From Acidobacteriota bacterium (GTDB lineage: Bacteria; Acidobacteriota; Thermoanaerobaculia; Multivoradales; Multivoraceae): DNA of 36,349 nt. The DNA lies in NCBI GenBank assembly GCA_003388555.1, contig QQVD01000062.1, forward strand, positions 1-36,349. The letters are read 5' to 3'. Position 1 is the stretch's first letter. Every line of letters starts with the position of its first letter. The notes below the pieces were generated by a model that saw only the letters and a program-made list of their open reading frames with translations, had not been told where the DNA came from and did no database searches. The position numbers and the translations under genes are program-made. This document shows, piece after piece, positions 7,081 to 26,654 of the stretch.

Positions 7081-7103
7081 CGGTCTCCGATCTCCGGGAG
7101 TAG

Positions 7104-10065: not shown

Positions 10066-10073
10066 GATCGTAC
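10066..10073 (-). promoter_or_regulatory. candidate -10 element (GTACGATC) for the acyl-CoA dehydrogenase gene
   Basis: On the minus strand GTACGATC (hexamer TACGAT) lies about 75 bases before the start at 9991. It differs at two central positions from the GTAGAATC found at 16941 and 29217. No -35 is evident. The rest of the 229-base region between 9991 and 10221 shows nothing else I can support. Confidence 0.3.
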
Positions 10074-10220
10074 ACCGCCGATCCGAGCGGCGCCGTGGTC
10101 CATCGCCCCGACGCCTCTGCGGGCCGCGCGTCAACGCGACCGGCCGGGCGACGTTCTCGCTGTCGAAGGGACCGCCGTCCGCGAACGGTGGTCGTCAGCC
10201 AGGAGGGGAGGGAGGCGGAG

Positions 10221-10703: not shown

Positions 10704-10765
10704 CGCCGGTCGTCGGAGAACTCCTACAGCGGGTTGGGCTCCGGACGACGCCGCGATGAGCCGGC

Positions 10766-10795
10766 ATCCGCCTCGCTCCTCGGGAAGGAGCGGAT
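10766..10795 (+). other. inverted repeat between hypothetical gene and response regulator
   Basis: CGCTCCT (10774-10780) and AGGAGCG (10786-10792) form a perfect 7-bp stem with loop CGGGA; an alternative fold pairs ATCCGC with GCGGAT at the outside. No T-run follows. It may be a weak terminator for the hypothetical gene or an operator or leader structure before the response regulator. Confidence 0.3.
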
Positions 10796-10919
10796 GGGCG
10801 CGGCGCTCCGTGGCAGATGAAGATGTCGTCAGTCAGGCCGGACCCGAGCCGGCCACGATCACGAGCACGACCTGCCCGACGGCGGCGAGGAGCCGCCCAA
10901 GGGCACGAAGAGAGCCACC

Positions 10920-11822: not shown

Positions 11823-13646
11823 GTGATCGGCCCCCTTCCCCATGTCGCCTCGCCGGGCGTCGTGACGCTGGCGCTCGGGCTCTGCGGGTCCGTCGCGGTC
11901 TCCGCCGCCGGGGCGGCGCCTGCCGAGCGGGAGGCACCCTGCCCCATCGATCTGGTCGAGGCGCAGCAGGTGCTCGGGGTCGATTTCGTGCACCGCACGG
12001 GTGCACAGGGTGAGCACCACCTGCCCGAGACGATGGGCTCCGGCGTCGCCTGGTACGACTACGACGGCGACGGCTGGCTCGACCTCTACCTGGTGCAGTC
12101 GGGGCCCTTTCCGCCGACCAGCGGGTCCGGCGTCGAGGCCGACGCCCCCGGCAACCAGCTCTTCCGCAACCTCGGGCCGGGCCCGGACGGCGTCTGGCGC
12201 GGCTTCGAGGAGTGGAGCCGGCGCAGCGGCAGCGGCGACCGCGGCTACGGCCAGGGAGTGCTGCCGGTGGACCTCGACGGCGACGGTCGTCTCGACCTGG
12301 TGCTCGCCAACTACGGCGGCGACCGCCTGCTGCGGGCGCAGGTCGACGGCACCTACCGGGCCGAGCCGCTCGCCGAGCTCGACGATGTCGCGCCAGCACC
12401 GCCGCGCTGGAGCTCGTCGATCGCCGCCGCCGATCCGGACGACGATGGCGATCTCGACCTCTACGTCGCCCGCTATCTCGACTACGACCCCGGGCACGGG
12501 ATGCTCTGCGGTGAGGCCGACGCCAGGCGCGCCTGCGATCCGGCGCTGTTCGAGGGCCAGGCCGACGGCTTCTGGAGCAACCAGGCCGGGACTCTGACCC
12601 CGCGCCCGCTCGAGGCCCTCGGGCTGCGGCCCGAGGGTCCGCACGGCAAGGGTCTGGGGGTGGTGTGGACCGATCTCGACGGCGACCGTCGCCCCGATCT
12701 CTACATCGCCAACGACCTCACCGTGAACCTGCTCTTCCGCACCCTCGAGCCGCAGCAGGGCGAGCCTCGCTTCGAGGAGCTGTCGCTGCTCTCGGGCGCC
12801 GGAGTCAATGCCCAGGGTCGTCCCGAGGCCGGCATGGGCGTCGCCGCGGGCGACGTCGACGGAGACGGCGATCCCGAGCTGCTGGTGACCAACTTCGACG
12901 TCGAGACCAACACCCTGTACGAGAACCTCGGCGGCCTCGAGTTCGAAGACCGCGCCGCCGCCAGCGGCTTCGGTCTGCCGTCGTTCAACCGGCTCGGCTT
13001 CGGGCTGGTGCTGGCCGACCTCGACCTCGACGGATGGCTCGACGCCTATGTCGCCAACGGCCACATCTTCCAGCAGCCCGCACGCGGCAACGTCGGTTTC
13101 GAGCAGCCGGATCAGCTGCTGCGTGGGGTACCTCCTGGACGCTTCGAAGAGGTCCTCTGCGCCGAGCTCGGAGCGCCGCTGGTCTCGCGTGGCGGTGCCG
13201 CCGGCGACTTCGACAACGACGGCAGAGTCGACCTCGCGATCAACAACAGCGGCGGCGCGGCGCGGATCCTGCGCAACCGCACGCCCGCCGGCGGCCCGAG
13301 CCAGCCGGGTGGCGAACGCTCCTGGGTCGGGATCGAGCTGCGCGACGAGTCCGCGCCGGGCAACCTCCAGGCGATCGGCGCCCGGGTCAGCCTGCACAAC
13401 GTCGCTCCGGAGTCCGGCGGTGTCTCTGGGAGCGGAGCGGTCTCGACCGCCCATCGCTGGGTGAGCGCCGGCGACAGCTACCAGTCGGCGAGCGACCGCC
13501 GCCAGGTCTTCCCACTCGGCGCCGCCGCGTCGCCGGCGCCCACGGCGGTGCTGGAGGTCGACTGGCCCGGCCGCGGCGCCGCACGGCAGCGGATCGTGCT
13601 ACCGGCCGAGGCGCGGGGACGCTACCTGCGGGTGGTGAGGCGGTGA
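11823..13646 (+). CDS. exported FG-GAP/VCBS beta-propeller with C-terminal ASPIC/UnbV domain (1)
   Basis: A 607-residue protein of the CRTAC1-like (FG-GAP repeat plus ASPIC/UnbV) family; role unknown, presumably extracytoplasmic binding. The signal sequence covers about 8-32. The family N-terminal signature follows: FVHRTG, then PETMGSGVAWYDYDGDGWLD (about 54-87). Further calcium-type loops (DLDGDGRLDL, DPDDDGDLDLYVA, DLDGDRRPDLYIAND, DVDGDGDPELLVTN, DLDLDGWLDAYVANG, DFDNDGRVDLAINN) mark propeller blades. A cysteine pair (LCGEADARRAC) lies in the middle. The UnbV domain (about 500-605) has AIGARVSLHN and a closing VLEVDWPGRG. The start is GTG 11823 without a ribosome site but behind a -10-like TAGCCT. 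The stop overlaps the GTG of the M16 gene by 4 bases. It heads the 13-kb block. Confidence 0.88.
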   Translation: MIGPLPHVASPGVVTLALGLCGSVAVSAAGAAPAEREAPCPIDLVEAQQVLGVDFVHRTGAQGEHHLPETMGSGVAWYDYDGDGWLDLYLVQSGPFPPTSGSGVEADAPGNQLFRNLGPGPDGVWRGFEEWSRRSGSGDRGYGQGVLPVDLDGDGRLDLVLANYGGDRLLRAQVDGTYRAEPLAELDDVAPAPPRWSSSIAAADPDDDGDLDLYVARYLDYDPGHGMLCGEADARRACDPALFEGQADGFWSNQAGTLTPRPLEALGLRPEGPHGKGLGVVWTDLDGDRRPDLYIANDLTVNLLFRTLEPQQGEPRFEELSLLSGAGVNAQGRPEAGMGVAAGDVDGDGDPELLVTNFDVETNTLYENLGGLEFEDRAAASGFGLPSFNRLGFGLVLADLDLDGWLDAYVANGHIFQQPARGNVGFEQPDQLLRGVPPGRFEEVLCAELGAPLVSRGGAAGDFDNDGRVDLAINNSGGAARILRNRTPAGGPSQPGGERSWVGIELRDESAPGNLQAIGARVSLHNVAPESGGVSGSGAVSTAHRWVSAGDSYQSASDRRQVFPLGAAASPAPTAVLEVDWPGRGAARQRIVLPAEARGRYLRVVRR

Positions 13647-15244
13647 GTGTGCGGGCCTCGTCGCGGCGCAGTCCGTCGATGCTGACGACGGTTTGGCTGC
13701 TGGCTCTGCTCGGCGTGGCCGCCGGCGGTGCGGTGGCGCAGCTCGCCGAAGGCCACCGTGCTCCGGGGCCTGCTCCCGGTCCAGCTCCGGCCCCGTCACC
13801 CGTGCACCGCCTGACGCTCGACAACGGCGTCGAGGTCCTCCTGGTGCGCCGCGCCGGCCTGCCCTTCGTCGCCGCCGGCTGGGCGGTGCGCGCCGGATCG
13901 GCGGACGACCCTCCCGGCGCTCGCGGCACTGCCCACCTCGTCGAGCATCTGCTGCACCAGGGCAGCGAGACGCTCGGCACCAGCGACTGGCCCCGGGAGC
14001 GACGCCTGCTCGAGCGCCAGGAGGATCTCGTCGATCGCCTCGAGGCGGCGCGCCGGGACGGTTCGGGCTCAGGTGCGCAGGATGCGGCGCGACGGCTGTC
14101 CGAGCTGCATCGCGAGCTGACCGCGATCCAGCGCAAGGGGGAGGCCGCGGCCTGGGCGGCGCGCGGTGGCATCACCGCCATCGACGCGCTGACCGAGCCC
14201 GACTTCTCGATCTACTGGGCGCAGGTGCCGCTGGGTCAGCTCGAGCTGTGGTTCTGGCTCGAGTCCGACCGCCTCGCCGCGCCTGTCTTCCGCGACTTCT
14301 ACTCCGAGCTCCAGGTCGTCGCGGAGGAGCTCGCGCAGCGTGTCGCCTCGCGGCCGGGTGGTCCCGCCGAGGCCGAGTTCGACGCGCTCTTCTGGCCCCG
14401 CGTCGGGGTGCCCGGCTACGCCTGGCCGGCGGGTGGCCTGGCCGAGGAGATCGCCGCCCTGAGGCCGCGCGACGCGAGGGGCTTCTTCGACCGCCACTAC
14501 CGCCCCGACCGGCTGCTCTTCGCTCTCGTCGGCGACGTCGACCCGGAGCTCGTCCACCGGCTCGCCGACGTCTACCTGGGCCGGCTGGCGCCGCGGGGGC
14601 CAGCGCCGCCGTCGCGGCGGTCCGAGGCCTCCACCGAATCTGGTGAGGCACCTGGACCGGTCGTCCTCGAGCGATCGTGCAGGTGCCGTGCACGGGTCGA
14701 GCTGCGCTGGCCGAGCGCCGCCGCGGGCGACGACGAGGAGGCGCTCTACGACCTGCTCGCCGGTGTGCTGAACGGGCGCACCGGTCGTCTGCACCGCAGC
14801 CTGGTCGAGCAGCGGGAGATCGCCTTCGCCGCCTATGCGCTGCACGCCTCGCGCGGCCTGGCGGGCTCGCTGCGCCTCACCGCCGAGGCGCTGGAATCGA
14901 CGTCGGCCGCAGGCGAGCCGGAGGCGGAGCTGGCGCAGCTGCAGCAGGCGCTGCTGACCGAGTTGCGCCGGGTTGCCGAGCACGGGGTGACCGCGGACGA
15001 GCTGACCCGGGTGCGACGGCGGCTGATGACCGAGCACGCGTCGCAGCTCGAGCCCAGCCAGGGGCTGCTGCTCCGACTCCTGGCGCGGCGGGCGGTCGCG
15101 GAGGCGGCCGGCGAAGATCGGGTCTGGCGCCGCGGCGAGCTGCTCGACGGTGTCGACCCGGCGGCGGTGCAGGCGCTCGCGACGCGTCTGGTCCGACTCG
15201 AGCCGTCGGTGCTGCGACTGCGCCGCGAGGAGGCGCCGTCGTGA
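13643..15244 (+). CDS. M16 zinc peptidase, catalytic subunit
   Basis: An exported M16 (pitrilysin/insulinase-like) metallopeptidase of 533 residues. The signal sequence (about 12-33) and a Pro/Ala/Gly linker precede the first M16 domain. The inverted zinc motif HLVEH (H98, E101, H102) and the downstream LQVVAEEL (third ligand E228 or E229) are intact, so it should be active. The spacing between them is longer than usual because of a charged helical insert at about 112-172; I recall this insert from a zinc-protease subfamily that shares the LELWxWLExDRL...PVFRxFY block, here at about 200-220. The second domain (about 340-530) contains the LHRSLVEQREIAFAAYAL segment. The start is GTG 13643, overlapping the UnbV stop (GTGA). 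The next gene is a non-catalytic M16, and the two probably form a heterodimer that clears peptides in the periplasm. Confidence 0.92.
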   Translation: MSVRASSRRSPSMLTTVWLLALLGVAAGGAVAQLAEGHRAPGPAPGPAPAPSPVHRLTLDNGVEVLLVRRAGLPFVAAGWAVRAGSADDPPGARGTAHLVEHLLHQGSETLGTSDWPRERRLLERQEDLVDRLEAARRDGSGSGAQDAARRLSELHRELTAIQRKGEAAAWAARGGITAIDALTEPDFSIYWAQVPLGQLELWFWLESDRLAAPVFRDFYSELQVVAEELAQRVASRPGGPAEAEFDALFWPRVGVPGYAWPAGGLAEEIAALRPRDARGFFDRHYRPDRLLFALVGDVDPELVHRLADVYLGRLAPRGPAPPSRRSEASTESGEAPGPVVLERSCRCRARVELRWPSAAAGDDEEALYDLLAGVLNGRTGRLHRSLVEQREIAFAAYALHASRGLAGSLRLTAEALESTSAAGEPEAELAQLQQALLTELRRVAEHGVTADELTRVRRRLMTEHASQLEPSQGLLLRLLARRAVAEAAGEDRVWRRGELLDGVDPAAVQALATRLVRLEPSVLRLRREEAPS

Positions 15245-16863
15245 GCGCCGAGCCGGTGGCTCGAAGACCGGCGGCGCCCGGCCGCCGGCTCCGCTCGCCG
15301 GCCTTCGTGTCGTCCCTGCTCGGAGTGGCGGTGGCACAAGCTCTGATGGCGACGTCGGTCGTGGCGCAGCGGCCCGCGCCGGCGCGCCATCCGTCCGAGC
15401 TGTCGCTGCACTTCGAGAGGTGGTCGCCGCCGACCGCGGAGGAGATCGCGTTGCCGATCACCGGAGCGCGCAGCGTCTACCTGATGCGCGACGATCTGGT
15501 TCCCCTGGTGCGTCTGACCCTGGCCCTGCCGGTGGGCGATGAGGACGACCCGGCGGAGCGCGTCGGTCTCGCCTCGATGACCGCGGCGATGCTGCGCCGC
15601 GGCGGCACCGTCTCGCGCACCCCGGCGGAGCTCGACGAGGCGATCGATGCGCTCGGCGCCAGGCTCGAGGTGCACGGGGGGGAAAGCCGCACCGTGGCGA
15701 CCCTGGTCTCGCTCTCCGAGGTGTTCCCCGAGGCCCTCGACCTGTTGTTCGAGGTGCTGCTCGAGCCCCGCTTCGATGCCGATCGTCTCGCCCGTGTCCG
15801 GCGGGCGCTCGAGACCGGTTTCGCGTCGCGCGAGGACGACCCGGTCGCGGTGCTGCGTCGGCGCTGGAACGACCTGTCCCTCGGTCCCGACCATCCGCGC
15901 AGCCGGCAGCTGACCCGCGCCTCGCTCGCCCGTCTCGACGACGTCGCCCTGCACGAGTTCCACCGCCGCCACCTGCTCGCCGAGCAGCCCTGGATCGCCC
16001 TCTCCGGCGCCATCACGGACGAGCGCGCGAGAGCGTTGCTCGGCGAGCACCTCGGACGCTGGAGTCGCCGTCGGGCCGCCGCTGCGGAGCTTGCGGACGC
16101 CGACCGGGCCGAGGGCGCCGCCGCCTCCGCGGCAGCCGACGTGGTGGGTGCGGGAGGGGCTCAGGCGCCAGCGCGTCGGCCCCCGGCGCCACCCGGCCTC
16201 TACCTGCTCGAGCACCCGGCGCCGCAGGGCAAGATGATGATCGGCGGTCCCGGCGTCACCATCGACGGCTGGGCCGACGAGCGCCTGTGGACGGCGATGG
16301 TGCTGCAGGAGATCCTCGATGGCGGCGGTGTGCTGTCACGCCTTCGCTCGCGGCTGCGCGCCCGCGACGGCCTCGTCTACACGGTGCAGGGACTGCTCGA
16401 GGCGGCGCCGCGCGATGCCCTGCTCGAGATCTTCCTCGAGGCAGAGCCGCCCTCGGCGATCGCGGCGCTGCGGGCGGTGGTCGACGAGCTCGAGGAGCTG
16501 GCAGCCCGGCCGGTCGGTGCCGAGGAGCTCGAGCTGGCGCAGCAGGGCCTCGTGCAGAGATACCCGTTCCACTTCGCCGACGCCGAGGCGATCGCAGGCC
16601 GCTACGCGCAGGACGATCTGCTCGGTCGATCCCACGAGCACTGGGCGGTCTACCGGGACGAGATCGACGCAGTCTCGGCGCGCCAGGTGCAGGCGCTGGC
16701 GCGCGAGGTCCTCGATCCCGAGCGCCTCAGGGTGCTCTGGGTCGGGCCGCCGCTCGACGACCGGTTGCTGCGCGAGGTCGTCGGCCGTGGGCCGCTGGTG
16801 GGCGAGGTGACTCGGCTGCCGCGCCTCGATCCGGCGACTCTGGAGCCGCTCGGATCGCCCTGA
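15241..16863 (+). CDS. M16 peptidase-like protein, non-catalytic partner
   Basis: A 540-residue M16 homologue with a signal sequence (about 19-43, ending in VVAQ). Where the zinc motif HxxEH should stand, after ERVGL, the sequence reads ASMTA (about 111-115); both histidines and the glutamate are lost, so it cannot bind zinc there. The fold is otherwise kept: LPVGDEDDPAERVGLASMTA, TPAELDEAIDALGARLEVHG, then a low-complexity Ala-rich linker (about 278-320) and a C-terminal domain with RLRSRLRARDGLVYTVQG, the Arg/Tyr segment typical of the partner subunit of bacterial M16B pairs. The start is GTG 15241 in a 4-base overlap with the catalytic gene. A 134-base gap follows, which contains a new promoter-like element. 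Confidence 0.9.
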   Translation: MSAEPVARRPAAPGRRLRSPAFVSSLLGVAVAQALMATSVVAQRPAPARHPSELSLHFERWSPPTAEEIALPITGARSVYLMRDDLVPLVRLTLALPVGDEDDPAERVGLASMTAAMLRRGGTVSRTPAELDEAIDALGARLEVHGGESRTVATLVSLSEVFPEALDLLFEVLLEPRFDADRLARVRRALETGFASREDDPVAVLRRRWNDLSLGPDHPRSRQLTRASLARLDDVALHEFHRRHLLAEQPWIALSGAITDERARALLGEHLGRWSRRRAAAAELADADRAEGAAASAAADVVGAGGAQAPARRPPAPPGLYLLEHPAPQGKMMIGGPGVTIDGWADERLWTAMVLQEILDGGGVLSRLRSRLRARDGLVYTVQGLLEAAPRDALLEIFLEAEPPSAIAALRAVVDELEELAARPVGAEELELAQQGLVQRYPFHFADAEAIAGRYAQDDLLGRSHEHWAVYRDEIDAVSARQVQALAREVLDPERLRVLWVGPPLDDRLLREVVGRGPLVGEVTRLPRLDPATLEPLGSP

Positions 16864-16940
16864 GGTCGGCGTGGAAGAGGCGGGGCGGTGGCCCGCGTTG
16901 CGAAGAGCCGGGAGCCCCCGGCCCCGGGCGCGACCGGCCG

Positions 16941-16948
16941 GTAGAATC
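16941..16948 (+). promoter_or_regulatory. candidate -10 element (GTAGAATC) upstream of the beta-sandwich/UnbV/TPR genes
   Basis: GTAGAATC contains the hexamer TAGAAT about 50 bases before ATG 16998, inside the only real gap of the block (16864-16997). The same eight bases occur on the minus strand at 29217-29210, close to the start of the TPR-UnbV fusion gene. No TTGACA-like -35 is seen. Confidence 0.45.
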
Positions 16949-16997
16949 TGCCGGCCGACCGCCGCGGCGCCTTCAGCGCGGAACCTCCGGAGAGACC

Positions 16998-17639
16998 ATG
17001 CCGTTTCCGACCAGTGATCCAGCCACGACGGTCCGCCGCCGGACCGTATCGCAGGGCGTTGCGCCCGGCCGACCCGTCGCCGCGGCATTCTCGTGGCTGC
17101 TGCCCCTGCTCCTGATCGCGCCGAGTGCCGGCTCCGCGGCGCAGGTCGCCGCCGGGGCGCAGGCCGAAGGCGAGCAGTCCAGCGGGCCTCTCGCGGTGCT
17201 CGCGATCGAGGTCGAGCCGGCGCGGGTCGCGGCCGACACGCTCTGCTCGCTGACGGTGCGCCTGGAGAACCGCGGCGAGCGTCCGATCTACGCCCTGGCC
17301 TTCGAGGTCCTGGTCGGCGGCGCCGCCCTTCCGGTCTACCGCGACCAGCTCTTCCTGCAGCGGATTCCGAGCGGCGAGACGTCGGTCGAGCTGTTCAACT
17401 TCTGGAGCAGTGAGACCGGACGGCCCCTGCCTGCCGGCGAGCACCTGGAGATCGAGGTGGCAGTGCTGTCGGCGCTCTTCCTCGACGAGTCGACCGAGCG
17501 CGAGCCGGCCACCGACGGCGGCGACGGCGAGGAGGTCGAGGTGTGGAAGCCGGCGGGAGCGGTGCCCGGGCTGCCCGCACGGGCGACGCTGCGTGTGCCG
17601 CTCGACCGCGGAGGTGAATCGTCGGGAGGCGGCGGATGA
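16998..17639 (+). CDS. small exported beta-sandwich protein (CARDB-like, function unknown)
   Basis: A 213-residue protein with a signal sequence (about 26-49, SWLLPLLLIAPSAGSAAQ). The rest looks like an immunoglobulin-type sandwich: VLAIEVEPARVAADTLCSLT followed by VRLENRGERPIYALAFEVLV, the 'extra-tension, then named beta strand' pattern of CARDB and DUF11-like domains, up to about residue 150, then an acidic linker and a final strand. I do not recognise an exact family and no catalytic residues are evident. The start is ATG 16998 with GGAG upstream. Its stop overlaps the ATG of the second UnbV gene (ATGA), so the two are probably translated together and the protein may be a partner or chaperone of that propeller. 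Confidence 0.65.
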   Translation: MPFPTSDPATTVRRRTVSQGVAPGRPVAAAFSWLLPLLLIAPSAGSAAQVAAGAQAEGEQSSGPLAVLAIEVEPARVAADTLCSLTVRLENRGERPIYALAFEVLVGGAALPVYRDQLFLQRIPSGETSVELFNFWSSETGRPLPAGEHLEIEVAVLSALFLDESTEREPATDGGDGEEVEVWKPAGAVPGLPARATLRVPLDRGGESSGGGG

Positions 17640-19432
17640 GCCGCCTTCGCGACGCGGCCGAGAGGGGGACGTCGGCATGCCGCCTGCTGGTCGTTGTGGC
17701 GCTCGCGGGCGGCGCCGTCGCCCAGGCTCAGCCCTGGTTGGTCGACGTCACCGAGGCGTCCGGAGTGCGCTTCGAGTACTTCAACGGCATGGTCGGCAAG
17801 CTCTACTTCCCCGAGCACATGGGGGGCAGCGTGGCGCTGTTCGATCTCGACGGCGACGGCGACCTGGACCTCTACCTCGGCCAGGGCTCGATGCTCGATG
17901 ACGCGCCGCTGTCCGAGGCCCTGCTGCCGGCGAAGCATCCGACGCCGCTGACCGACCGCATCTACCGCAACGACGGAGTGAAGGACGGCACGGTGCGCTT
18001 CGTCGACGTCACCGAGAGCGCCAACCTGGCCTCGACCACCGGCTACTCGATGGGGGTGGCGACTGGCGACTACGACCGCGATGGCGACGTCGATCTCTAC
18101 CTGACGCAGCTGGGCGACAACCAGCTGCTGCGCAATCGCGGCGACGGCTCGTTCGAGGACGTCACCGAGGCGGCCGGCGCCAACGACCGCCGCTGGAGCG
18201 TGCCGGCGAGCTTCTTCGACTACGACGGCGACGGCTGGCTCGATCTCTTCGTCGGCAACTACGTCGAGTTCCGCGTCGCCACACACAAGAACTGCGCGTC
18301 GCCACAGGGGGCCTACGACTACTGCGGCCCGCTGGCCTACGCCGCTGAGCCCAACCGGCTGCTGCGCAACCGCGGCGACGGCACCTTCGAGGATGCCACC
18401 GCGAAGTCGCTGATGGAGACCGAGGGGCGCACCACCCTCGGCTCGGTGGCGGCGGACTTCGACGGCGACGGGCGGATCGATCTCTACGTCGCCAACGACA
18501 TGATGAACAACGAGCTGTGGCTCAATCAGGGTGACGGCACCTTCCTCGACGACGCCGACCTGCTCGGCGCCGCCGTCGACCGCAACGGGCAGGCGCAGGC
18601 CAGCATGGGACTGGTGGCCGGCGATCTCGACGGCAGCGGTACGGTCGACCTGTTCATGACCCACCTGCAACGGGAGAACAACACCCTCTACCTCAACGAA
18701 GGTGGCGGCCTGTTTCGCGACGCCAGCCGCGGCTCGGGCCTGGCGGAGGGCAGCTTCCCGTACACCGGGTTCGGCACAGCGATCCTCGACGCCGACGGCG
18801 ACGGCATCGACGACCTGTTCGTCGCCAACGGCGCCGTGCGTCGGCTCGACGACCAGGTGGCGGCGGGCGATCCACACCCGCTCGCCGAGATCAACCAGCT
18901 CTATCGTGGCAAGGGCGGCGGGGTCTTCGAGCTGGTCCCCGCGGCGCAGGCCTTCGACGTCGATCGTCGCGAGGTGAGCCGAGGCGTCGCGGTAGGAGAT
19001 CTCGACAACGACGGTGACCTCGACCTGGTGGTCTCGAACAACGGCGGTCCGGCACGGGTGCTGTCGAACCGCAGCGACCCGCGGCGGTGGCTGGGCCTGC
19101 GCCTGGTGGTGGACGGTGTCGGCGCCGCGGCGGGCAAGGCGCCGGTGACCGAAGCGATCGGCGCGCTGGCGCGGGTGCGCTCGGACGACGGCCGCTGGTG
19201 GGTGACGCGCCGCGTGCACACCGACGGCAGCTACGCCGCCGCCTCGGATCCGCGCCTGCTGTGGACGTTGCCCGGTACGCGGGGCGATCTCGAGGTCGAG
19301 GTGACCTGGCCGGACGGTGTCGTCGAGCGCTTTCAGGGTCTCGGCGCTGCCGCCTACCACACCCTGCGCCGCGGTGACGGCGCTGCCGTGGCTTCGGGGT
19401 CGGCGGTCGACCCGGACAGCGCCGAGCGATGA
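17636..19432 (+). CDS. exported FG-GAP beta-propeller with ASPIC/UnbV domain (2)
   Basis: A 598-residue CRTAC1-like protein. A signal sequence (about 14-32, LLVVVALAGGAVAQAQ) leads directly into VTEASGVRFEYFNG and PEHMGGSVALFDLDGDGDLD. Blades are marked by DYDRDGDVDLYLTQ, DYDGDGWLDLFVGNY, DFDGDGRIDLYVANDM, DLDGSGTVDLFMTH, DADGDGIDDLFVANG and DLDNDGDLDLVVSNN. The cysteine pair is NCASPQGAYDYCGP. The UnbV domain (about 480-585) includes EAIGALARVRSDDG and VEVTWPDGVVERFQG. Aspartate loops imply calcium binding; the ligand is unknown. The ATG at 17636 overlaps the previous stop and the TGA overlaps the ATG of the TPR gene, so it is tightly coupled on both sides. Confidence 0.9.
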   Translation: MSRLRDAAERGTSACRLLVVVALAGGAVAQAQPWLVDVTEASGVRFEYFNGMVGKLYFPEHMGGSVALFDLDGDGDLDLYLGQGSMLDDAPLSEALLPAKHPTPLTDRIYRNDGVKDGTVRFVDVTESANLASTTGYSMGVATGDYDRDGDVDLYLTQLGDNQLLRNRGDGSFEDVTEAAGANDRRWSVPASFFDYDGDGWLDLFVGNYVEFRVATHKNCASPQGAYDYCGPLAYAAEPNRLLRNRGDGTFEDATAKSLMETEGRTTLGSVAADFDGDGRIDLYVANDMMNNELWLNQGDGTFLDDADLLGAAVDRNGQAQASMGLVAGDLDGSGTVDLFMTHLQRENNTLYLNEGGGLFRDASRGSGLAEGSFPYTGFGTAILDADGDGIDDLFVANGAVRRLDDQVAAGDPHPLAEINQLYRGKGGGVFELVPAAQAFDVDRREVSRGVAVGDLDNDGDLDLVVSNNGGPARVLSNRSDPRRWLGLRLVVDGVGAAAGKAPVTEAIGALARVRSDDGRWWVTRRVHTDGSYAAASDPRLLWTLPGTRGDLEVEVTWPDGVVERFQGLGAAAYHTLRRGDGAAVASGSAVDPDSAER

Positions 19433-21375
19433 GCCCGGCAGCCGAGCCGCCTCTGCGAGGTACCAGCCCCCTCACGACCGGTTTCGCTCTGCGGCTCGGC
19501 GTCGCCGCCTTCCTGATCGCGGCGACGGTGGTGACGGCCCAGGGCGACGGCGGATCGGGGAACGGTTCGCTCGACCTCGCCCCCGAGCCGGTGCTGGAGA
19601 ACTTCGAGCCCAGCGTGCAGGAGCAGCTGCGTTCGGCTCGTGAGGTGGTCGCCGGGATCCTCGCCACGGAGGGTGACCCCGAGAAGCGCGGCGATGCGCT
19701 GGGACAACTCGCCGCGCTCTATCTGCTCTACGACTTCATGGACACCGCCGAGCCGCTCCTGCTGCAGGCACGCCGGCTGCAGCCGAACGACTTCCGCTGG
19801 CCCTACTTCCTGGCCCTGCTCTACAGCTTCGCGGGCGACCCCGAAGCCGGCCTCGAGAACGCGCGGCGCTCGGCGGAGCTGGCGCCCGACCATCTGGCGA
19901 GCCACCTCCGACGCGGAGACTTCGCCTACGAGCTCGGCCTCGAGGACGAAGCGCGGCGCGCCTACGAGCGCGCCCGCGAGCTGGACGATCCCTCTGGCGC
20001 GGCGCTCTACGGCCTGGCGCGCCTCGCCCTCGACGAAGGCGAGGCGCAGGCGGCGGTGGGCATGCTCGAGCAGGCGCTCGAGCGCCAGCCCCCGGGCTCG
20101 GTGATCCACTATCACCTCGGGGTCGCCCACCGCGCCCTCGGCGACCGCGAGCGCGCCCGCGCCGCCTTCGCCGCCAACCAGAACGAGCGGGTGATCTTCC
20201 CCGACGTGCTGTGGGACAGCCTCTCGACGCTGAACCGCAGTCGCGAAGCGATCTTCTCGCGCGGCGTCGAGGCGCTCGAGCGCGGCCAGCCCGACCTGGC
20301 GTTGGAGACATTCGGCGAGCTCATCGCCAAGAACCCCGACGATGCCGAGGCGCACTACAACGTCGGCATGTCTTTGCTCGAGCTGGGTCGCAAGGACGAG
20401 GCCGAGGAGGCGATCCGGCGCGCCATCGAGTTGCGCGACGACTATCGCGACGCCTACTACAACCTCGGTCTGGTGCTCGGTCAGCGCGGTGACTACGGCG
20501 AGTCGGAGCAGCAGTTCCGCAGGGTGCTCGAGATCGATCCCGAGGATCTCTCGAACCGGGTGCAGCTGGCCAACGCCCTCGCCGAGCAGGGTGAGATCGA
20601 AGACGCCGTGGCGATGCTCGACGAGGTGCTGGAGGCCGATCCGGCGATGGCCGAGGCGCGGCTGCTGCTCGGCGTGGTGCACGCGCGGCGGGGCGCTGCC
20701 GAGGCGGCGCGCGAGCAGCTGCACCGGATCCTCGCGCTCGCTCCCGGGGCCGTCTCGGAGCGCGCCGAGGCCCACTACCACCTGGCGCAGATCGCCGATC
20801 GGGAGGGCGATGCCGAAGCGGCGCGCGAGGAGCTCCTGCGGGCCGCTGAGCTCGAGCCCGAGGTGCTCTCGCTGCGCCAGTCGCTGGCCGCCGAGCTCGG
20901 TCGGCGCGGCGAGCTGATGGCCGCTGCGAAGCTGTTCGAGAGCATCGTCGCCGACCGTCCGGAGGATCCCCGGGCGCACCTCTCTCGCGCCATGGCCTAT
21001 CTGCTCGGTGGCGACGAGATGGCGGCCCTGACGGCTCTCGAGCGCAGCCTCGAGCGCCACCCCGAAGAGTTGGTGCTGCGCCACCTGACGGCGAGACTCC
21101 TGGCGACCGCGGAGTCCGAGGCGGTCCGCGACGGGCCGCGAGCCGTCGAGATGGCGCTCGCTGTCTTCGAGCAACAGCAGACGCTCGACCACGGCGAGAC
21201 GGTGGCGATGGCCCTGGCCGAGGCCGGACGCTTCGCGGAAGCCGTCTCGTGGCAGCAGCGGGTGCTCGACTTCGAGTCCCGGGAGCAAGGTCGCGCCTCG
21301 CCCGGCAGGGTCGAACGGATGGAGCGCTATGGCAGTGGGCAAGCGGTGCGCGCTCCCTGGCGGGCCCGTCCTTGA
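19429..21375 (+). CDS. exported TPR-repeat protein
   Basis: A 648-residue protein with a signal sequence (about 15-38, FALRLGVAAFLIAATVVTAQ) followed by at least a dozen tetratricopeptide repeats from about 75 onward, e.g. PDDAEAHYNVGMSLLELGRK, RDDYRDAYYNLGLVLGQRGD, PEDLSNRVQLANALAEQGE and PEDPRAHLSRAMAYLLGGDE. TPR superhelices bind protein partners, here presumably in the periplasm. Coupling by 4-base overlaps to UnbV genes on both sides suggests that it scaffolds or matures those propellers. The same pairing recurs on the minus strand at 25011-29191, once as a fusion. The start ATG 19429 lies in ATGA; the TGA overlaps a TTG start of the next gene. Confidence 0.9.
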   Translation: MSPAAEPPLRGTSPLTTGFALRLGVAAFLIAATVVTAQGDGGSGNGSLDLAPEPVLENFEPSVQEQLRSAREVVAGILATEGDPEKRGDALGQLAALYLLYDFMDTAEPLLLQARRLQPNDFRWPYFLALLYSFAGDPEAGLENARRSAELAPDHLASHLRRGDFAYELGLEDEARRAYERARELDDPSGAALYGLARLALDEGEAQAAVGMLEQALERQPPGSVIHYHLGVAHRALGDRERARAAFAANQNERVIFPDVLWDSLSTLNRSREAIFSRGVEALERGQPDLALETFGELIAKNPDDAEAHYNVGMSLLELGRKDEAEEAIRRAIELRDDYRDAYYNLGLVLGQRGDYGESEQQFRRVLEIDPEDLSNRVQLANALAEQGEIEDAVAMLDEVLEADPAMAEARLLLGVVHARRGAAEAAREQLHRILALAPGAVSERAEAHYHLAQIADREGDAEAAREELLRAAELEPEVLSLRQSLAAELGRRGELMAAAKLFESIVADRPEDPRAHLSRAMAYLLGGDEMAALTALERSLERHPEELVLRHLTARLLATAESEAVRDGPRAVEMALAVFEQQQTLDHGETVAMALAEAGRFAEAVSWQQRVLDFESREQGRASPGRVERMERYGSGQAVRAPWRARP

Positions 21376-23249
21376 GCCCGCAGCCCTCCGCTCCCGTTTC
21401 GATCTCGGGCCCGCAGCGAGGCTCCGCGGCGCTGCCGCTGAGGCGCGGCGCTGGGGGATCGTGGCTTGCCGCGATCTCACTGTCGGCGTCGTTCCTGGCC
21501 GCGGTGGCTCTCGGCGCGCAGGAGCCCCCGACCGCGAGCCGCGCCGCGTCGGCCTGGTTCGAGGAGGTGTCGTCGCGGTGGAGCGCTGCCTTCACCCATC
21601 GCCACGGCGGACGCGGCGACTTCTTCATGATCGAGACGATGGGGTCGGGCGTGGTTGCGTTCGACTACGACGGCGACGGCGACGATGACCTGCTCTGGCT
21701 CGACAGTGGCGATCCCGACCACTACCGCGGCGCGGCGGACGGCGATGCCCCGCCCTGGCTCCCAGGACGCAACGTCCTGCTGCGCAACGATCTCGGCGCG
21801 GCACCGCCGATGCAGGAAGACGGCGGAGCGGTCGAGGCCATCGCTTCGCCTCGTTTCGTCGACGTCAGCGAGGCGGCCGGCGTGCGGCTCGACGACTACG
21901 TGATGGGCGGCACCGCCGGGGATGTCGACGCCGACGGTGACATCGATCTCGTCGTCACCTCCTTCGGCCCGACCCGCTTGCTACGCAACGACGGACGAGG
22001 CGGCTTCGAGGTCGAGCCGCTCGATGAGAGCGAGATCTTCGGCAGGCCGGGTCAGCGCTTCTGGGGCGCCTCCGCGGCGCTCGCCGATGCCGACCGGGAC
22101 GGCGATCTCGATCTCTACGTCACCGGTTACGTCGACTTCGACTACGGCCGGAACCACCTCTGCGGCGAGCCCGAGCGTGGCCTGCGCAGCTACTGCCATC
22201 CCAACTCGTACCGGGGACTGCCGGATCGCTTCTATCTGAACGACGGCAGCGGCTCCTTCCGCGAAGCGGCGGCCGAGCTCGGCCTCGGCGAAGCGAACGG
22301 CAACGGCCTCGGCGTGGTCTGGCTCGACGTCGGTCGGGATCTCGAGCCCGACATCTACGTCGCCAACGACCTGACAGCGAACTACCTGTTCCGCAACCTG
22401 GGCGCCGCGCACACCCCCCGGTTCGAGGAGCGCGGCGCGCTCTACGGCGTCGCGCTCTCCGAGCGGGGCGACGCCGAGGCGGGGATGGGTATCGGGGTCG
22501 GCGACTGGGACGGCAACGGGCTCGAGGACCTCTTCGTCACGCACCTCGATCGTCAGACCAACGCGCTCTATGCCGCACTGTCCCCGGAGCTCTTCGTCGA
22601 CCAGCGCTACCAGGCTCGCCTCGCCGAGCCGTCGTTGCCGCGGGTCGGCTTCGGCGCCGCGTTCGAGGACTTCGATCTCGACGGCGACCTCGATCTGCTG
22701 ATCGCCAACGGACACATCATCCACAACGCCGAAGAGTTCGAGCGAGGCAGCACCTACCGCCAGCCGAACGATCTCTTCGAGCAGGTCGCGGGCGGCTACC
22801 GCGCGGTCGCCGCCTCGGGGCTCGGGATCGTGCGCAGCAGTCGCGGCCTCGCTCTGGCCGACTTCGATCTCGACGGGCGCACCGACGCCGCTATCTCGAA
22901 CTCGAACGAGGCATCCGAGCTGTACCGCAACGTCGCCCCAGTCGCCACGCGGGCAGCACTCAGGGTACGGCTACGGGACGCCGGCGCCGCGAGCCTCGGG
23001 CGCAGCCCGGACGGGATCGGCGGCTGGCTCGACCTCGCCCCCGCGACGGAGGGAGCGGCGCGGCAGTCGCGCTATGTGCGGACGGCGAGCTCGTACCTTT
23101 CGCAGAACAGCCTCGAGGCGACCTTCGGCGGTGTGTCATCGGGCCAGGAAACGGTGCGGCTCGAGGTCCAGTGGCCGGACGGCAGGCGACAGCGCATCCT
23201 CGCCCCGCACCGCACCCGCTGGCTGGTCCACCGGAGCGCTGCGCCGTGA
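21372..23249 (+). CDS. exported FG-GAP beta-propeller with ASPIC/UnbV domain (3)
   Basis: A 625-residue CRTAC1-like protein. The supported start is TTG 21372, overlapping the TPR stop (TTGA). It puts the signal sequence (about 30-50, SWLAAISLSASFLAAVALGA) in a reasonable place, although the n-region of about 29 residues is long; the frame itself is open to 21249. The signature HRHGGRGDFFMIETMGSGVV is followed by DYDGDGDDDLLWLDSG. Blades include DVDADGDIDLVVTS, DADRDGDLDLYVTGY, DVGRDLEPDIYVAND (missing one loop Asp/Gly), DWDGNGLEDLFVTH, DFDLDGDLDLLIANG and DFDLDGRTDAAISN. The cysteine pair is LCGEPERGLRSYCHP. The UnbV domain ends RTASSYLSQNS ... LEVQWPDGRRQRI. It is closely similar to the next gene, which looks like a tandem paralogue. 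Confidence 0.88.
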   Translation: MSPQPSAPVSISGPQRGSAALPLRRGAGGSWLAAISLSASFLAAVALGAQEPPTASRAASAWFEEVSSRWSAAFTHRHGGRGDFFMIETMGSGVVAFDYDGDGDDDLLWLDSGDPDHYRGAADGDAPPWLPGRNVLLRNDLGAAPPMQEDGGAVEAIASPRFVDVSEAAGVRLDDYVMGGTAGDVDADGDIDLVVTSFGPTRLLRNDGRGGFEVEPLDESEIFGRPGQRFWGASAALADADRDGDLDLYVTGYVDFDYGRNHLCGEPERGLRSYCHPNSYRGLPDRFYLNDGSGSFREAAAELGLGEANGNGLGVVWLDVGRDLEPDIYVANDLTANYLFRNLGAAHTPRFEERGALYGVALSERGDAEAGMGIGVGDWDGNGLEDLFVTHLDRQTNALYAALSPELFVDQRYQARLAEPSLPRVGFGAAFEDFDLDGDLDLLIANGHIIHNAEEFERGSTYRQPNDLFEQVAGGYRAVAASGLGIVRSSRGLALADFDLDGRTDAAISNSNEASELYRNVAPVATRAALRVRLRDAGAASLGRSPDGIGGWLDLAPATEGAARQSRYVRTASSYLSQNSLEATFGGVSSGQETVRLEVQWPDGRRQRILAPHRTRWLVHRSAAP

Positions 23250-24985
23250 ACCGGGTCTGGCCGATCGCAGCGCTGTCAGCGCTTCTCCTTGGAACACTCT
23301 CGGCGGGAGTCTCGGCTGCCCAGCCCGAGGCGGCGGCAGGGCCGCTCTTCCGCGAGGTCGCCGGCGAGTGGGGACTCGACTTCCGTCACCATCACGGCGG
23401 CTCGGGGGAGCGCTACATGGTCGAGACGATGGTCGGCGGCGTGGCGCTGTTCGACTACGACGGCGACGGCGACGACGACGCGCTCTTCGTCGACGGCGGC
23501 GTGCTCCCGGGCTACCAGGGTGAAGCGCCGCGCACGGTGCTGCTGCGCAACGATCTGATCGTCGGCGACGACGGGGTCCTCGAGCCGCGCTTCGTCGACG
23601 TCAGCGCGGCGGCGGGGATCGATTTCGCCGGCTACGGCTGCGGCGCCACGGCGGGAGACTTCGACGGCGACGGCTGGATCGACGTCTACCTCACCGCCTA
23701 CGGCGCCAACGCCCTCTTCCGCAACCGCGGCGACGGCAGCTTCGAGGAGGTCGGAGCCGGCGCCGGGGTCGCCGACCCGCGTTGGAGCGCGTCGGCCGCG
23801 TTTGCCGACACCGATCTCGACGGCGATCTCGACCTCTACGTCGCCAACTACGTCGAGTGGTCGCCGGAGACCCGACAGTTCTGCGGCAACCGCGAGACCG
23901 GAGTGCGTGGCTACTGTCATCCGGGCGTCTACCAGGGCTCGCCGGACGCCTTCTACCGCAACCGCGGCGACGGCAGCTTCGAGGATGCGACCGCCGAGGT
24001 CGGTCTCGCCGGGCCGCGCGAATCCGGCCTCGGTGTGGTCTTCGGCGACGTCGACGCCAACGGTTGGCCCGACCTGTACGTCGCCAACGACCTCGATCCG
24101 AACCTGCTCTTCCTCGGCGTCGGGGAGGGCCGCTTCGAAGACAACACCCTGCTCTCGGGCACCGCGGCTTCGCCCAACGGACACCCCGAGGCGGGCATGG
24201 GGGTCGAGCTGGCCGACCTCAACGGCGACCTGCGACCCGACCTGGTGGTCACCAACTTCGCCCTCGAGACGAATGCCCTCTACCGCAACAGCGGCGGCGG
24301 GCTGTTCGTCGACCGGCGCTTCGCCGACAACCTCGCCGAGCCGACGCTGCATCCGCTCGGCTTCGGCGTCGCGGCCCTCGACGCCGATCTCGATGGCGAT
24401 CTCGATCTGCTGTTCGCCAACGGACACATCCTCGACAACCTGGAGGAGCTCGGCCAGGACGGCCAGTACCGGCAGCCGAACCTGCTGCTGCTCAACCAGG
24501 ACGGACGCTTCTCGCCGGCGCCCCAGGCGGGGCTCGACGTGGTGCGCGCGAGCCGCGGGCTGGCGATCGGCGATCTCGACCTGGATGGCGATCTCGACGT
24601 GGTGATCGTCAACTCCAACGACGTCGCCGAGGCCTACGAGGGGCTGGCCCGGGGCTCCGGTGGCGGACTGTCGAGAGGCGGCTCAGGCGGCTCGTGGCTC
24701 CTCGTCGACCTGGAGCAGCCGGGCGCCAACCGCTACGCGCTCGGCGCCGAGGCGGTGCTGCGCACCGGCGGCTCGGGGCCCGGCGCGGCGCAGCTGCGCC
24801 ATCGCCGTTCGGCCTCTTCGTACCTGTCGCAGAACGGGCTCGGCCTGCACTTCGGGATCCCGGCGAGCGCCGCCACTTCGAGCGGCGGGGACGGGTACTC
24901 CGTCGCGGTGCGTTGGCCCGACGGCGGCCGACTCCGCCTCGAGGCGGCGCCGCAGCAGCGCAGGCTGCTGGTGCGGCGTCCCTGA
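23246..24985 (+). CDS. exported FG-GAP beta-propeller with ASPIC/UnbV domain (4)
   Basis: A 579-residue CRTAC1-like protein. The start is GTG 23246 in GTGA overlap with the previous gene, giving a compact signal sequence (about 3-25, VWPIAALSALLLGTLSAGVSAAQ). The signature HHHGGSGERYMVETM is followed by DYDGDGDDDALFVDGG; blades include DFDGDGWIDVYLTAY, DTDLDGDLDLYVANY, DVDANGWPDLYVAND, DLNGDLRPDLVVTN, DADLDGDLDLLFANG and DLDLDGDLDVVIVNSN. The cysteine pair is FCGNRETGVRGYCHP, with the same spacing as in the third protein. The UnbV region carries RRSASSYLSQNGLGLHFG and AVRWPDGG. Shared signature, cysteine spacing and the SSYLSQN block with its neighbour argue for recent duplication. It is the last gene of the plus-strand block, converging on the TPR gene 25 bases away. 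Confidence 0.9.
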   Translation: MNRVWPIAALSALLLGTLSAGVSAAQPEAAAGPLFREVAGEWGLDFRHHHGGSGERYMVETMVGGVALFDYDGDGDDDALFVDGGVLPGYQGEAPRTVLLRNDLIVGDDGVLEPRFVDVSAAAGIDFAGYGCGATAGDFDGDGWIDVYLTAYGANALFRNRGDGSFEEVGAGAGVADPRWSASAAFADTDLDGDLDLYVANYVEWSPETRQFCGNRETGVRGYCHPGVYQGSPDAFYRNRGDGSFEDATAEVGLAGPRESGLGVVFGDVDANGWPDLYVANDLDPNLLFLGVGEGRFEDNTLLSGTAASPNGHPEAGMGVELADLNGDLRPDLVVTNFALETNALYRNSGGGLFVDRRFADNLAEPTLHPLGFGVAALDADLDGDLDLLFANGHILDNLEELGQDGQYRQPNLLLLNQDGRFSPAPQAGLDVVRASRGLAIGDLDLDGDLDVVIVNSNDVAEAYEGLARGSGGGLSRGGSGGSWLLVDLEQPGANRYALGAEAVLRTGGSGPGAAQLRHRRSASSYLSQNGLGLHFGIPASAATSSGGDGYSVAVRWPDGGRLRLEAAPQQRRLLVRRP

Positions 24986-25001: not shown

Positions 25002-25017
25002 CGGCTGCGCTCAGCCG
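25002..25017. terminator. hairpin between convergent UnbV and TPR genes
   Basis: CGGCTG, loop CGCT, CAGCCG: a 6-bp stem in the short space between the plus-strand stop at 24985 and the minus-strand stop at 25011, overlapping the latter. It could serve both directions, but it has no T-run. Confidence 0.35.
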
Positions 25018-26654
25018 TCGAGGCGGTCGAGATTCTGTTTGGCGACGGGGTCCTCGGGCCAGATCTCGAGCGCCCGGGCCAGCAGGGTGCGCGCCTCGTC
25101 GCGCCGGTTCTGGTTCATCAGCAGCACCGCCAGGTCGTTGAGCGTCGGGCTGTGCTCCGGATTGCTCTCGAGCGCGGCGCGCAGACTCTCTTCAGCCTCG
25201 TCGAGGCGCTGCAGCGACATCAGCACCGCGCCGCGCTGGTAGAGACCGTCGGTCGTGGGACGCAGCTCGAGGGAGAGCTCCACCGCCCGCAGGGCCTCGC
25301 CGGGACGCTGCAGAGAGAGCAGCACCCGTGAAGCCAGCAGCGGGATGCGCGCGTCCTCGGGGTTGAGCACCGACTCCTGCTCGAGGATGCGAAGCGCCTC
25401 CTCGTCCTCGCCGGCGGTCAGCTTCTCGAAAGCGAGCCGCAGCTGCTTGGCGGTGGGGTCGTTGCGCTCCACGTCGACCTGATTGGGCGCCTGCCGTCCC
25501 TCGTCGTCGGCGAGCTGCTGGAAGCGTGCGATCGCCTGCCGGGCGCCGTCGTTGTCGCCCGACGCCGCGAGCGCCTGGCCGAGAGACTGCCAGGCGAGCT
25601 TCTCGCGGGGGATGATCTCGGTCGCCATGCGCAGGTAGGGCAGCGCTTCGTCGGGACGATCGTCGGTCAACAGCAGGCGCCCGTGCTCGAGCACGATCGA
25701 TCCCGCCAGGCTGCCTCCGGAGGAGCGGTCGGGTGTCGCCGCGATGCGCTCGGCGAACGGCTGCAGCAGCCCGAGGGCCTGCTGCACATCGCCGTTCTGG
25801 TAGTGCGCCTGGGCGAGCTGGAGGGTGAGCTGGGGATTGCCCTCGGCGTGGCCTTCGAGGACATCGATCGCCTTGTTCGACTCGCCGGCCATCATGTGGG
25901 CGCGGGCGGAGGCTCGGCGCACATCGGCCTGCATCGCCTCGGGCGCATCGGCGACCAGCGGCTCGAGGTAGCCGAGGGCGGCGTAGGGCTCTCCCTTCAG
26001 CAGCAGGGTCTGGCCCCAGAGCAGCTGCACGCCGGGGTCGTCCTGGGCGAGGTCGGAGAGCATCGCCTCGGCGTCGGGCGCCCGCTCGAGCTGCACCGCA
26101 GCCACCGCGGCGAGCAGGCGCGCCTCCTCGTCCTCGGGGTGCAGCGTCGACCACCGACGCAGGTAGGGGAAGGCGCCGACGTAGTCGCCGCCGCGCCCGA
26201 GCAGCACGCCGAGCTCGCGCACGGCCGGCGAGCCCGGTGCGAGCTCGGCCGACCGGCGCAGCATGTCGAGGCCGCGATCGAAATCGCCGACGCCGACCGC
26301 GGCGCGGCCGGCGTTGTAGAGCACACCGGGGTCGTCGTGCTCCTCGATCAGCGGTTCGAGGACCTCGAGCGCGTCGGCGTGCCGGTCGAGGCGCACGTAG
26401 ACGGCGCCGAGCGCGGCGGCGGCGCGGCGATCCCCCTCGGCGCGCAGGCGCTCGAGGTCGGCGACGGCGGCGCTGAGCTCGTTGCGCTGGATCTTCGCCA
26501 GTGCCTCGTCGAACGGGTCCGGCCCGGCGTCGGCCTCCTGCCCGCCGGCGATCGGAGCGAGCAGGAAGCAGAGCAGGACACCGAGGAACGCCACGGTGGC
26601 GGGTCGGTGTCGCGGAAGGAATCGTCGGGATCGCGGAAGGGATCGCAGAGGCAT
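25011..26654 (-). CDS. exported TPR-repeat protein
   Basis: A 547-residue TPR protein. The signal sequence (about 19-38, TVAFLGVLLCFLLAPIAGGQ) is followed by about a dozen helix-turn-helix repeats, e.g. RAAAALGAVYVRLDRHADAL, DPGVLYNAGRAAVGVGDFDR, PQLTLQLAQAHYQNGDVQQA and PEHSPTLNDLAVLLMNQNRR. No enzymatic domain is present. The start is ATG 26654 with GGAG seven bases upstream; the frame stays open far beyond, but that part is the shadow of the neighbouring gene. A TAGCCT -10-like element lies at 26709-26704 on the minus strand. The gene follows the TPR-UnbV fusion by 146 bases and mirrors the UnbV/TPR pairing of the opposite strand. Confidence 0.9.
   Translation of the reverse strand: MPLRSLPRSRRFLPRHRPATVAFLGVLLCFLLAPIAGGQEADAGPDPFDEALAKIQRNELSAAVADLERLRAEGDRRAAAALGAVYVRLDRHADALEVLEPLIEEHDDPGVLYNAGRAAVGVGDFDRGLDMLRRSAELAPGSPAVRELGVLLGRGGDYVGAFPYLRRWSTLHPEDEEARLLAAVAAVQLERAPDAEAMLSDLAQDDPGVQLLWGQTLLLKGEPYAALGYLEPLVADAPEAMQADVRRASARAHMMAGESNKAIDVLEGHAEGNPQLTLQLAQAHYQNGDVQQALGLLQPFAERIAATPDRSSGGSLAGSIVLEHGRLLLTDDRPDEALPYLRMATEIIPREKLAWQSLGQALAASGDNDGARQAIARFQQLADDEGRQAPNQVDVERNDPTAKQLRLAFEKLTAGEDEEALRILEQESVLNPEDARIPLLASRVLLSLQRPGEALRAVELSLELRPTTDGLYQRGAVLMSLQRLDEAEESLRAALESNPEHSPTLNDLAVLLMNQNRRDEARTLLARALEIWPEDPVAKQNLDRLDG

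Follow-up and report, generated by a model that had tools for sequence, protein, structure and literature searches.

Organization of the locus

The window, i.e. the whole stretch of DNA analysed, is the complete contig QQVD01000062.1 of an Acidobacteriota bacterium (36,349 bases, 72% G+C) and is part of a 6.8 Mb assembly (genome label G000). It contains a gene cluster that, judged by comparison with relatives, is real and conserved, with an architecture that corrects an initial annotation of the contig. The genes code for five proteins with an FG-GAP propeller and an UnbV/ASPIC domain (UnbV1 to UnbV5), two M16 peptidase-family proteins (M16a and M16b), two tetratricopeptide repeat proteins (TPR1 and TPR2) and a beta-sandwich protein (BS). 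By gene order in relatives the block is two conserved units joined together: unit A (UnbV1 and the M16 pair) and unit B (UnbV2-TPR1-UnbV3-UnbV4 with TPR2 and UnbV5). The host family sample comprises 24 genomes including G000, with the 23 others used for comparison; genomes, contigs, fetched loci and families carry the prefixes G, C, L and f. The features are as follows.

UnbV1: 11823..13646, + strand, FG-GAP propeller with UnbV/ASPIC domain; opens unit A
M16a: 13643..15244, + strand, M16 peptidase with HLVEH motif, catalytic type, 533 aa
M16b: 15241..16863, + strand, M16 partner lacking HxxEH, 540 aa
BS: 16998..17639, + strand, probably exported Ig/CARDB-like beta-sandwich protein
UnbV2: 17636..19432, + strand, FG-GAP/UnbV propeller; opens unit B
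TPR1: 19429..21375, + strand, TPR protein; directly 3' of UnbV2 in relatives
UnbV3: 21372..23249, + strand, FG-GAP/UnbV propeller
UnbV4: 23246..24985, + strand, FG-GAP/UnbV propeller; structure modelled
TPR2: 25011..26654, - strand, TPR protein, convergent with UnbV4; ends unit B in genus g4
UnbV5: 26801..29191, - strand, larger FG-GAP/UnbV protein, upstream of TPR2 on that strand

Eight rightwards-facing genes lie head to tail at 11823-24985 (UnbV1-M16a-M16b-BS-UnbV2-TPR1-UnbV3-UnbV4), and the open frames and Pfam matches agree with the order, families and strand that the initial annotation had assigned to them. That interval is a genuine gene block but stops short, omitting TPR2 and UnbV5, which on conservation are part of the same set, so that the block extends past 24985. 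The statement that all junctions but one overlap by four bases is correct: start/stop overlaps are present at six of the seven (GTGA, GTGA, ATGA, ATGA, TTGA and GTGA), the exception being M16b/BS. There, position 16860 reads CTGA, and the BS frame, although open from that point, lacks a usual start codon there; the ATG at 16998, 134 bases past M16b, is the more likely start. Counting one row per genome, with matches no more than 400 bases apart on one strand, the overlaps recur in relatives at UnbV1/M16a (12/13), UnbV2/TPR1 (13/15), UnbV3/UnbV4 (7/9) and M16a/M16b (5/10), with none at TPR1/UnbV3 (0/13) or UnbV4/TPR2 (0/6). Both unit-A overlaps are present in the open frames of G001.

Pfam searches place FG-GAP (PF13517) and UnbV_ASPIC (PF07593) above cut-off in all five UnbV proteins, Peptidase_M16 and M16_C in both M16a and M16b, and TPR families in TPR1, where TPR_Slam scores 50.3 bits (cut-off 35.2) and many generic TPR models score higher. 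The cluster proteins are probably exported: a simple hydropathy scan finds a hydrophobic stretch near the N-terminus in nine of the ten, including TPR2 and UnbV5, and for BS, where the 80-residue scan ended too early, a similar stretch is visible by eye after the ATG.

Conservation of the UnbV/TPR array

Genes in relatives were identified by their best BLAST match to a protein of the window or of G016, using stop-to-stop frames and not curated annotation, and several UnbV-array loci run off contig ends. Of the 18 other family genomes for which a UnbV2 match was fetched, 17 have TPR1 directly 3' of UnbV2 and in the same orientation; the exception, G002 (L071), has short UnbV fragments only, beside BS, and no TPR1 match. 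Thirteen of these 17 genomes have UnbV3 after TPR1, 10 have UnbV4, and every one has TPR2. Contiguous in the window, the two units are separated by 24-34 kb in the 12 g4 genomes that have both annotated on one contig; 11 of these have them on opposite strands, whereas in G021 they share a strand. G001, which belongs to a different genus, has unit A, BS, UnbV5, UnbV2, two TPR1-like genes, UnbV4 and TPR2 on one contig.

Whole or partial copies of unit B are also present in other families of the host order, in f4 (L150, L151, L152, L156, L163, L167), f8 (L153, L154) and f2 (L053, L067), and the direct succession of UnbV2 and TPR1 is seen in f4 and f2 as well. L150 (family f4) contains UnbV1 to UnbV5 with TPR1 and TPR2 within ~17 kb (from ~1.4 to 18.3 kb). 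UnbV1 is situated inside the UnbV/TPR cluster in L150 and L154. Gene order is reshuffled between families.

A tree of 55 UnbV sequences, from which stop-containing translations, near-duplicates and matches no longer than 400 residues were removed, recovers five groups: UnbV1 (7 rows, support 100/100), UnbV2 (9 rows, 99/84), UnbV3 (10 rows, 100/97), UnbV4 (9 rows, 95/93) and UnbV5 (7 rows, 99/93). Each contains the window protein together with members from at least one other family; the UnbV5 group also contains two UnbVs from other G000 loci, and the UnbV3 group takes in one gene each of L150, L151, L053 and L163 that BLAST had called UnbV4. The window and L150 each have all five lineages together. 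Four are found in G001, where UnbV3 is missing, and four in L151, where UnbV1 is missing and the contig ends; L153-L154 have three. The simplest account of these groupings is that the lineages stood together before the families split; joint transfer is a possible alternative.

UnbV proteins are abundant in these genomes, with 11-23 UnbV domains in each of six genomes counted. Among 148 class genomes, 37 have UnbV4-like proteins (E 1e-120 or better), and all 37 belong to the host order; in a set of 396 genomes taken from the phylum, 69 have matches at 1e-100. For UnbV and M16 the class searches scored the best 8-9 candidates per genome. UnbV genes also tend to lie near TPR genes. In the single-contig genome G021 all 11 UnbV domains, in 9 of 9 clusters, are within 3 kb of a TPR_16 gene (background 3.3% of the genome), a count that includes one UnbV gene of the unit-B locus itself. 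The corresponding figure in G000 is 10 of 22 (background 3.6%), or with the window excluded 6 of 17 domains and 5 of 13 clusters. These counts use one hand-entered position per TPR gene and 150 scored TPR_16 candidates per genome, and may be undercounts.

An Oar-type receptor and sulfatase-like enzymes near unit B

Family genomes have three further genes near unit B. Their products are an Oar-type TonB receptor, a sulfatase-like enzyme with a TPR tail and a carboxypeptidase-regulatory/TPR protein. In all 13 family genomes with the flank fetched, the receptor is no more than ~8 kb from unit B; in G003, G006, G017 and G018 the fetched flank is too short to reach this range. One receptor scanned has a CarboxypepD_reg match (E 5.4e-15) and a sub-cut-off Plug match. 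M16a and the receptor are separated by ~24 kb (G001), 19 kb (G009) or 18 kb (G021). Some, though not all, loci of f4, f8 and f2 likewise have Oar and/or sulfatase-like matches close to UnbV genes (L157, L158, L165 and L154, with L155 ~10 kb off).

The G000 contig C33 contains two sulfatase-like/TPR genes (17131-21302), a partial match to the carboxypeptidase-regulatory/TPR protein and a receptor (32154-35048), and by comparison with G001 these are apparently the other half of the cluster. The same stretch (C33:17131-35048; L183, L184) also contains VWA-type genes and no UnbV match. The fetched locus L181 matched none of the probes and was left out. Five other G000 loci, on C2, C6, C9, C20 and C63 (L175, L176, L177, L182 and L179), have UnbV genes with sulfatase-like/TPR genes and/or an Oar-like receptor.

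The sulfatase-like enzyme scanned matches both PF00884 and PF01663. All 24 of the sulfatase-like genes in which the motif is found (e.g. L111, L112, L116) have Thr at the nucleophile position (T-x-P-S-H); 8 of 32 matches showed no motif. A Thr nucleophile is typical of nucleotide pyrophosphatases, and its presence suggests phosphodiesterase-type rather than sulfatase chemistry.

Unit A and the M16 pair

All 24 family genomes have an M16a match. UnbV1 is on the same strand, its match no more than 518 bases from that of M16a, in 22 of 22 first-class loci, to which L005 adds G014. Of the 23 other family genomes, 22 thus retain the UnbV1-M16a-M16b linkage, with only a paralogous pair seen in G002. 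HxxEH is present in 44 of 44 M16a frames and in 1 of 44 M16b frames, counting relatives and paralogues. By motif and gene order M16a and M16b are thus an adjacent pair of catalytic and non-catalytic chains, in agreement with the initial annotation (HLVEH in M16a, no HxxEH in M16b). The further step to a heterodimer is not taken, because a paper on organelle peptidases (PMC9291397) states that the bacterial relatives of the mitochondrial processing peptidase do not work as heterodimers; the two are a candidate pair worth testing.

No UnbV match lies beside M16 within the fetched stretches of 20 non-family M16 loci, five of which (L134, L136, L138, L139, L144) have less than 1 kb of contig upstream of M16a. 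A midpoint-rooted M16a tree, with long branches for the window and G001, places the nine UnbV1-linked sequences in a single group (support 98/94), which only L138 of family f8 joins. The other 19 non-family sequences fall with or next to a second M16 pair of the host family that is itself not beside UnbV. These loci were accordingly rejected as orthologues of the window pair, L138 alone grouping with the UnbV1-linked sequences, and the 0/20 result says little about that pair because 19 of the 20 are nearer to the second one. A better test is provided by 14 UnbV-array or UnbV4/BS loci from f2, f4, f8 and f9, none of which has an M16 match. Because of this absence the UnbV1-M16 link appears confined to the host family, as far as examined.

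Structure of the UnbV proteins

The UnbV4 model, built with 15 relatives, has a predicted local distance difference test score (pLDDT) of 87.8 and a predicted template modelling score of 0.91. Its best match in the PDB is murine CRTAC1 (9etn), with a Foldseek E of 3.2e-29 and a Z of 41.5 (root-mean-square deviation 2.2, 454 residues); the sequence comparison gives E 3.9e-15. As modelled, UnbV4 has the whole CRTAC1 fold, both propeller and ASPIC/UnbV domain. The next structural neighbours are LGI1 (Z 29) and many propellers, with aldos-2-ulose dehydratase at Z 25.6 over 368 residues; by Foldseek, PVL-type lectins come second, and rhamnogalacturonan lyases, aldos-2-ulose dehydratase and integrins are among many others. 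Such likenesses between a model and known structures are of shape, not of function.

Among 40 locus UnbVs there are seven conserved DxDxD-type sites (UnbV4 numbering), candidate metal-binding motifs of the blade loops, with nearly invariant blade Asp residues, and six further polar positions (E60, N281, N286, N343, R437, S525) are at least 88% conserved. If the integrin topology applies, as we assume, several of these polar positions follow the strand after the metal loop and so would lie on a putative ligand face. A Cys pair is common to window UnbV1-4.

BS and flanking genes

BS was considered as a member of a known domain family, and this was rejected: no Pfam family matches at E 0.01, the best PDB sequence match has E 0.031, Foldseek gives no match at 0.001 or below, and VIA matches (Z 9.8 or less) are scattered over Ig-like folds. 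The model (pLDDT 89.9) is a common Ig/CARDB-like sandwich; the biofilm protein RbmA is one of many structures that match it equally well (Z 8.9). BS is found in 50 of 148 class genomes, every one in the host order, and is single copy in 48 of the 50. G011 (C165, C69) and G022 (C1, C9) have two copies each, which could reflect duplication or mixed bins; the sulfatase-like gene beside one G022 copy (L086:1609-3718) is split over several frames and is probably decayed or mis-sequenced. BS lies near UnbV genes in loci of f1, f2 (L053, L067; ~5 kb off in L072) and f9. It was rejected as a constant partner of the array, most f4 BS loci having no nearby UnbV match.

In G016 (L031) M16b and BS are separated by two genes for reprolysin-like metallopeptidases that carry fn3 domains, and by a DUF3179 gene (5704-11085, - strand, and 4199-5662, + strand); other g4 genomes have a DUF3179 match at this position or, in some cases, a gap of similar size.

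Upstream of UnbV1 is a LuxR response regulator (10920-11633), which has no match in the other 195 fetched loci (~20 kb or less each, many overlapping) and was for this reason rejected as a conserved regulator. The gene for an M15 D-Ala-D-Ala peptidase-like protein overlaps one that by eye resembles an acyl-CoA dehydrogenase (7681-8850 and 8828-10075, both - strand); a gene of 72-84% identity also lies before UnbV1 in G001 and in most of the g4 loci. Downstream are TamA (Omp85, POTRA) and TamB (30662-36349), the translocation and assembly module (TAM). Neither is matched at E 1e-10 in the same 195 loci, and the neighbour therefore looks local and was rejected as a functional partner.

Discussion

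By analogy with nutrient loci linked to TonB receptors, the locus may serve envelope capture, processing and uptake, an M16 pair having been joined to it in the host family. We favour this reading tentatively because there are precedents both for import (Fus/PqqL) and for secretion (Oar/PopC). The array of UnbV propellers and TPR proteins would act at the cell envelope, where the propellers, each with seven DxDxD-type blades and an UnbV domain, would bind a macromolecule, probably a glycan or glycoconjugate, via their conserved face, and the TPR proteins would hold several propellers together. Sulfatase-like/TPR enzymes would cleave ester groups and the Oar-type receptor would move the product across the outer membrane, while in the host family the M16a/M16b pair would cut the peptide part in the periplasm, as FusC and PqqL do in serving TonB receptors. 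The receptor and sulfatase-like genes of G000 would act in trans because they are located on another contig. In favour of this reading are the UnbV2-TPR1 succession, the five UnbV lineages shared with other families, the Oar-type receptor near unit B, the nearness of UnbV to TPR_16 genes, the same-strand adjacency of UnbV1 and M16a, the CRTAC1-like model of UnbV4 with lectins and lyases among its fold neighbours, and the precedent of M16 genes next to TonB receptors.

Several observations weigh against uptake. Neither a receptor nor a sulfatase-like gene is seen on the window contig, and the 14 UnbV-array loci fetched outside the family show no M16 match. A general nearness of UnbV and TonB receptor genes, sought in six genomes with PF00593, was rejected, being by eye near background among the matches listed; the Oar receptors score poorly with this model. 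No carbohydrate-active enzyme family is present in the few flank proteins scanned, many of the best UnbV4 fold neighbours are propellers without a sugar role, and 'sulfatase' may be a misnomer for enzymes with Thr where a sulfatase has Cys or Ser.

The nearness of an Oar-type receptor to unit B in all 13 fetched flanks would also suit an export platform, with the receptor and TPR periplasmic chaperones secreting UnbV propellers, and perhaps peptidases, to the surface. Oar is required for PopC secretion (PMC6434023), and TPR1 exceeds the TPR_Slam cut-off, though it scores below many generic TPR models. This is unlikely, if deserving of serious weight: it leaves the conserved hydrolases beside the receptor unexplained, the receptor is on another contig in G000, and no fixed ratio of cargo to receptor is apparent, the UnbV number varying and G049 (L158) having two Oar matches beside one UnbV4. 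CRTAC1 and integrins are structural or adhesive proteins in animals, and the UnbV4 fold is closest to the former and has the latter among its Foldseek matches. The propellers might then be secreted parts of an adhesion or matrix layer, assembled by the TPR proteins and trimmed by the peptidases, with uptake playing no part; the Ig/CARDB-type sandwich of BS, with RbmA among its many tied matches, points the same way, as would a sponge origin of several of the MAG series with BS loci. Conserved nearness to a TonB receptor and hydrolases fits uptake better, and we consider such a layer rather unlikely.

An elaboration that we regard as quite unlikely is that this is an undescribed envelope system of the host order, combining multi-propeller UnbV/TPR complexes with phosphodiesterase-like TPR enzymes of the Thr-nucleophile kind and with the Oar receptor. 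Its UnbV propellers would themselves be sugar enzymes, with a pocket like that of aldos-2-ulose dehydratase or a lyase, rather than inert binders, and paralogues in one operon would take successive steps. Propellers, TPR proteins and an M16 pair next to TamA and TamB could instead act on outer-membrane proteins like BamB, BamD and BepA, in envelope assembly or quality control, and the types of part do resemble those of the BAM (beta-barrel assembly machinery) complex. This is improbable, given that the TAM neighbour looks local and that the number of UnbV domains per genome suits substrate diversity rather than housekeeping. The remaining account is chance or drift, abundant secreted families clustering without joint function; UnbV, TPR and M16 families do have many members here and gene order is reshuffled, but order is conserved, start/stop overlaps recur, orthologous lineages share a locus in other families and UnbV lies near TPR far above background, all of which makes it highly improbable.

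The initial annotation, which suggested that the UnbV, TPR and M16 proteins may form a single machine, is thus partly supported. Within the family the genes are indeed neighbours, both in the linkage of UnbV1 to the M16 pair and in the placing of UnbV beside TPR. An M16-centred machine is weakened by the lack of an M16 match in all 14 outside arrays, by the place of UnbV1 inside the UnbV/TPR cluster there (L150, L154) and by the separation of the g4 units, and the partners seen beside the UnbV/TPR set are instead the Oar-type receptor and the sulfatase-like/TPR enzymes. UnbV/ASPIC proteins are numerous in these Acidobacteriota and, to judge from the model, share a whole fold with animal CRTAC1. 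A locus that keeps several UnbV lineages with recurring partners offers a defined set for questions of binding and import, and the family-confined M16 link spares experimenters an M16-centred starting model.

Comparison with known systems

In keeping with the view that bacterial UnbV proteins have no established function, none turned up in the papers searched in the open PubMed Central (PMC) subset, nor did a description of an UnbV-TPR gene cluster. Several UnbV copies are noted in Poribacteria (PMC3909097) and an UnbV paralogue is listed in the tables for Solibacter (PMC3174227), with no function given in the available parts of either paper. A CRTAC1-family FG-GAP gene likewise occupies a conserved neighbourhood in Planctomycetota, beside hydrazine-synthase-like genes; in the accessible text of PMC12758564 the partners are different and there is one propeller gene only.

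The pairing of an M16 gene with a neighbouring TonB receptor is well established for Proteobacteria, and the Fus and YddB-PqqL systems link the two in macromolecule import with periplasmic cutting (PMC6793856). The M16 protein of those systems is a single chain, in contrast to the two-chain pair here (533 and 540 aa), and the window M16 scores 25.7 bits against the PqqF model (cut-off 320), which places it outside the single-chain FusC/PqqL type. Further differences are that the receptor here is Oar-type with CarboxypepD_reg, that nothing equivalent to the propellers and TPR proteins appears in those systems as described in the passages seen, and that a link of M16 to the array is seen in one family only. 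Oar and PopC of Myxococcus xanthus similarly combine an Oar-type receptor and a protease in one system, although the role there is secretion and the excerpts of PMC6434023 name no UnbV or TPR part.

The likeness to CRTAC1 extends over the whole chain of the UnbV4 model, whereas the bacterial motifs ANDL, EAGMG, ANGHI and SRG are by eye not kept in the animal protein. We know of no TPR partner for animal CRTAC1.

SusC/SusD loci provide a further comparison, consisting of a TonB receptor, dedicated exported binding proteins, hydrolases and a helical-repeat partner, a set that the cluster described here resembles. SusD is not among the best 25 of the 27 Pfam families matched by TPR1, nor in the table for TPR2, and no glycoside hydrolase is found among the few flank proteins scanned; in place of surface glycan-binding proteins, the cluster would have its UnbV propellers.

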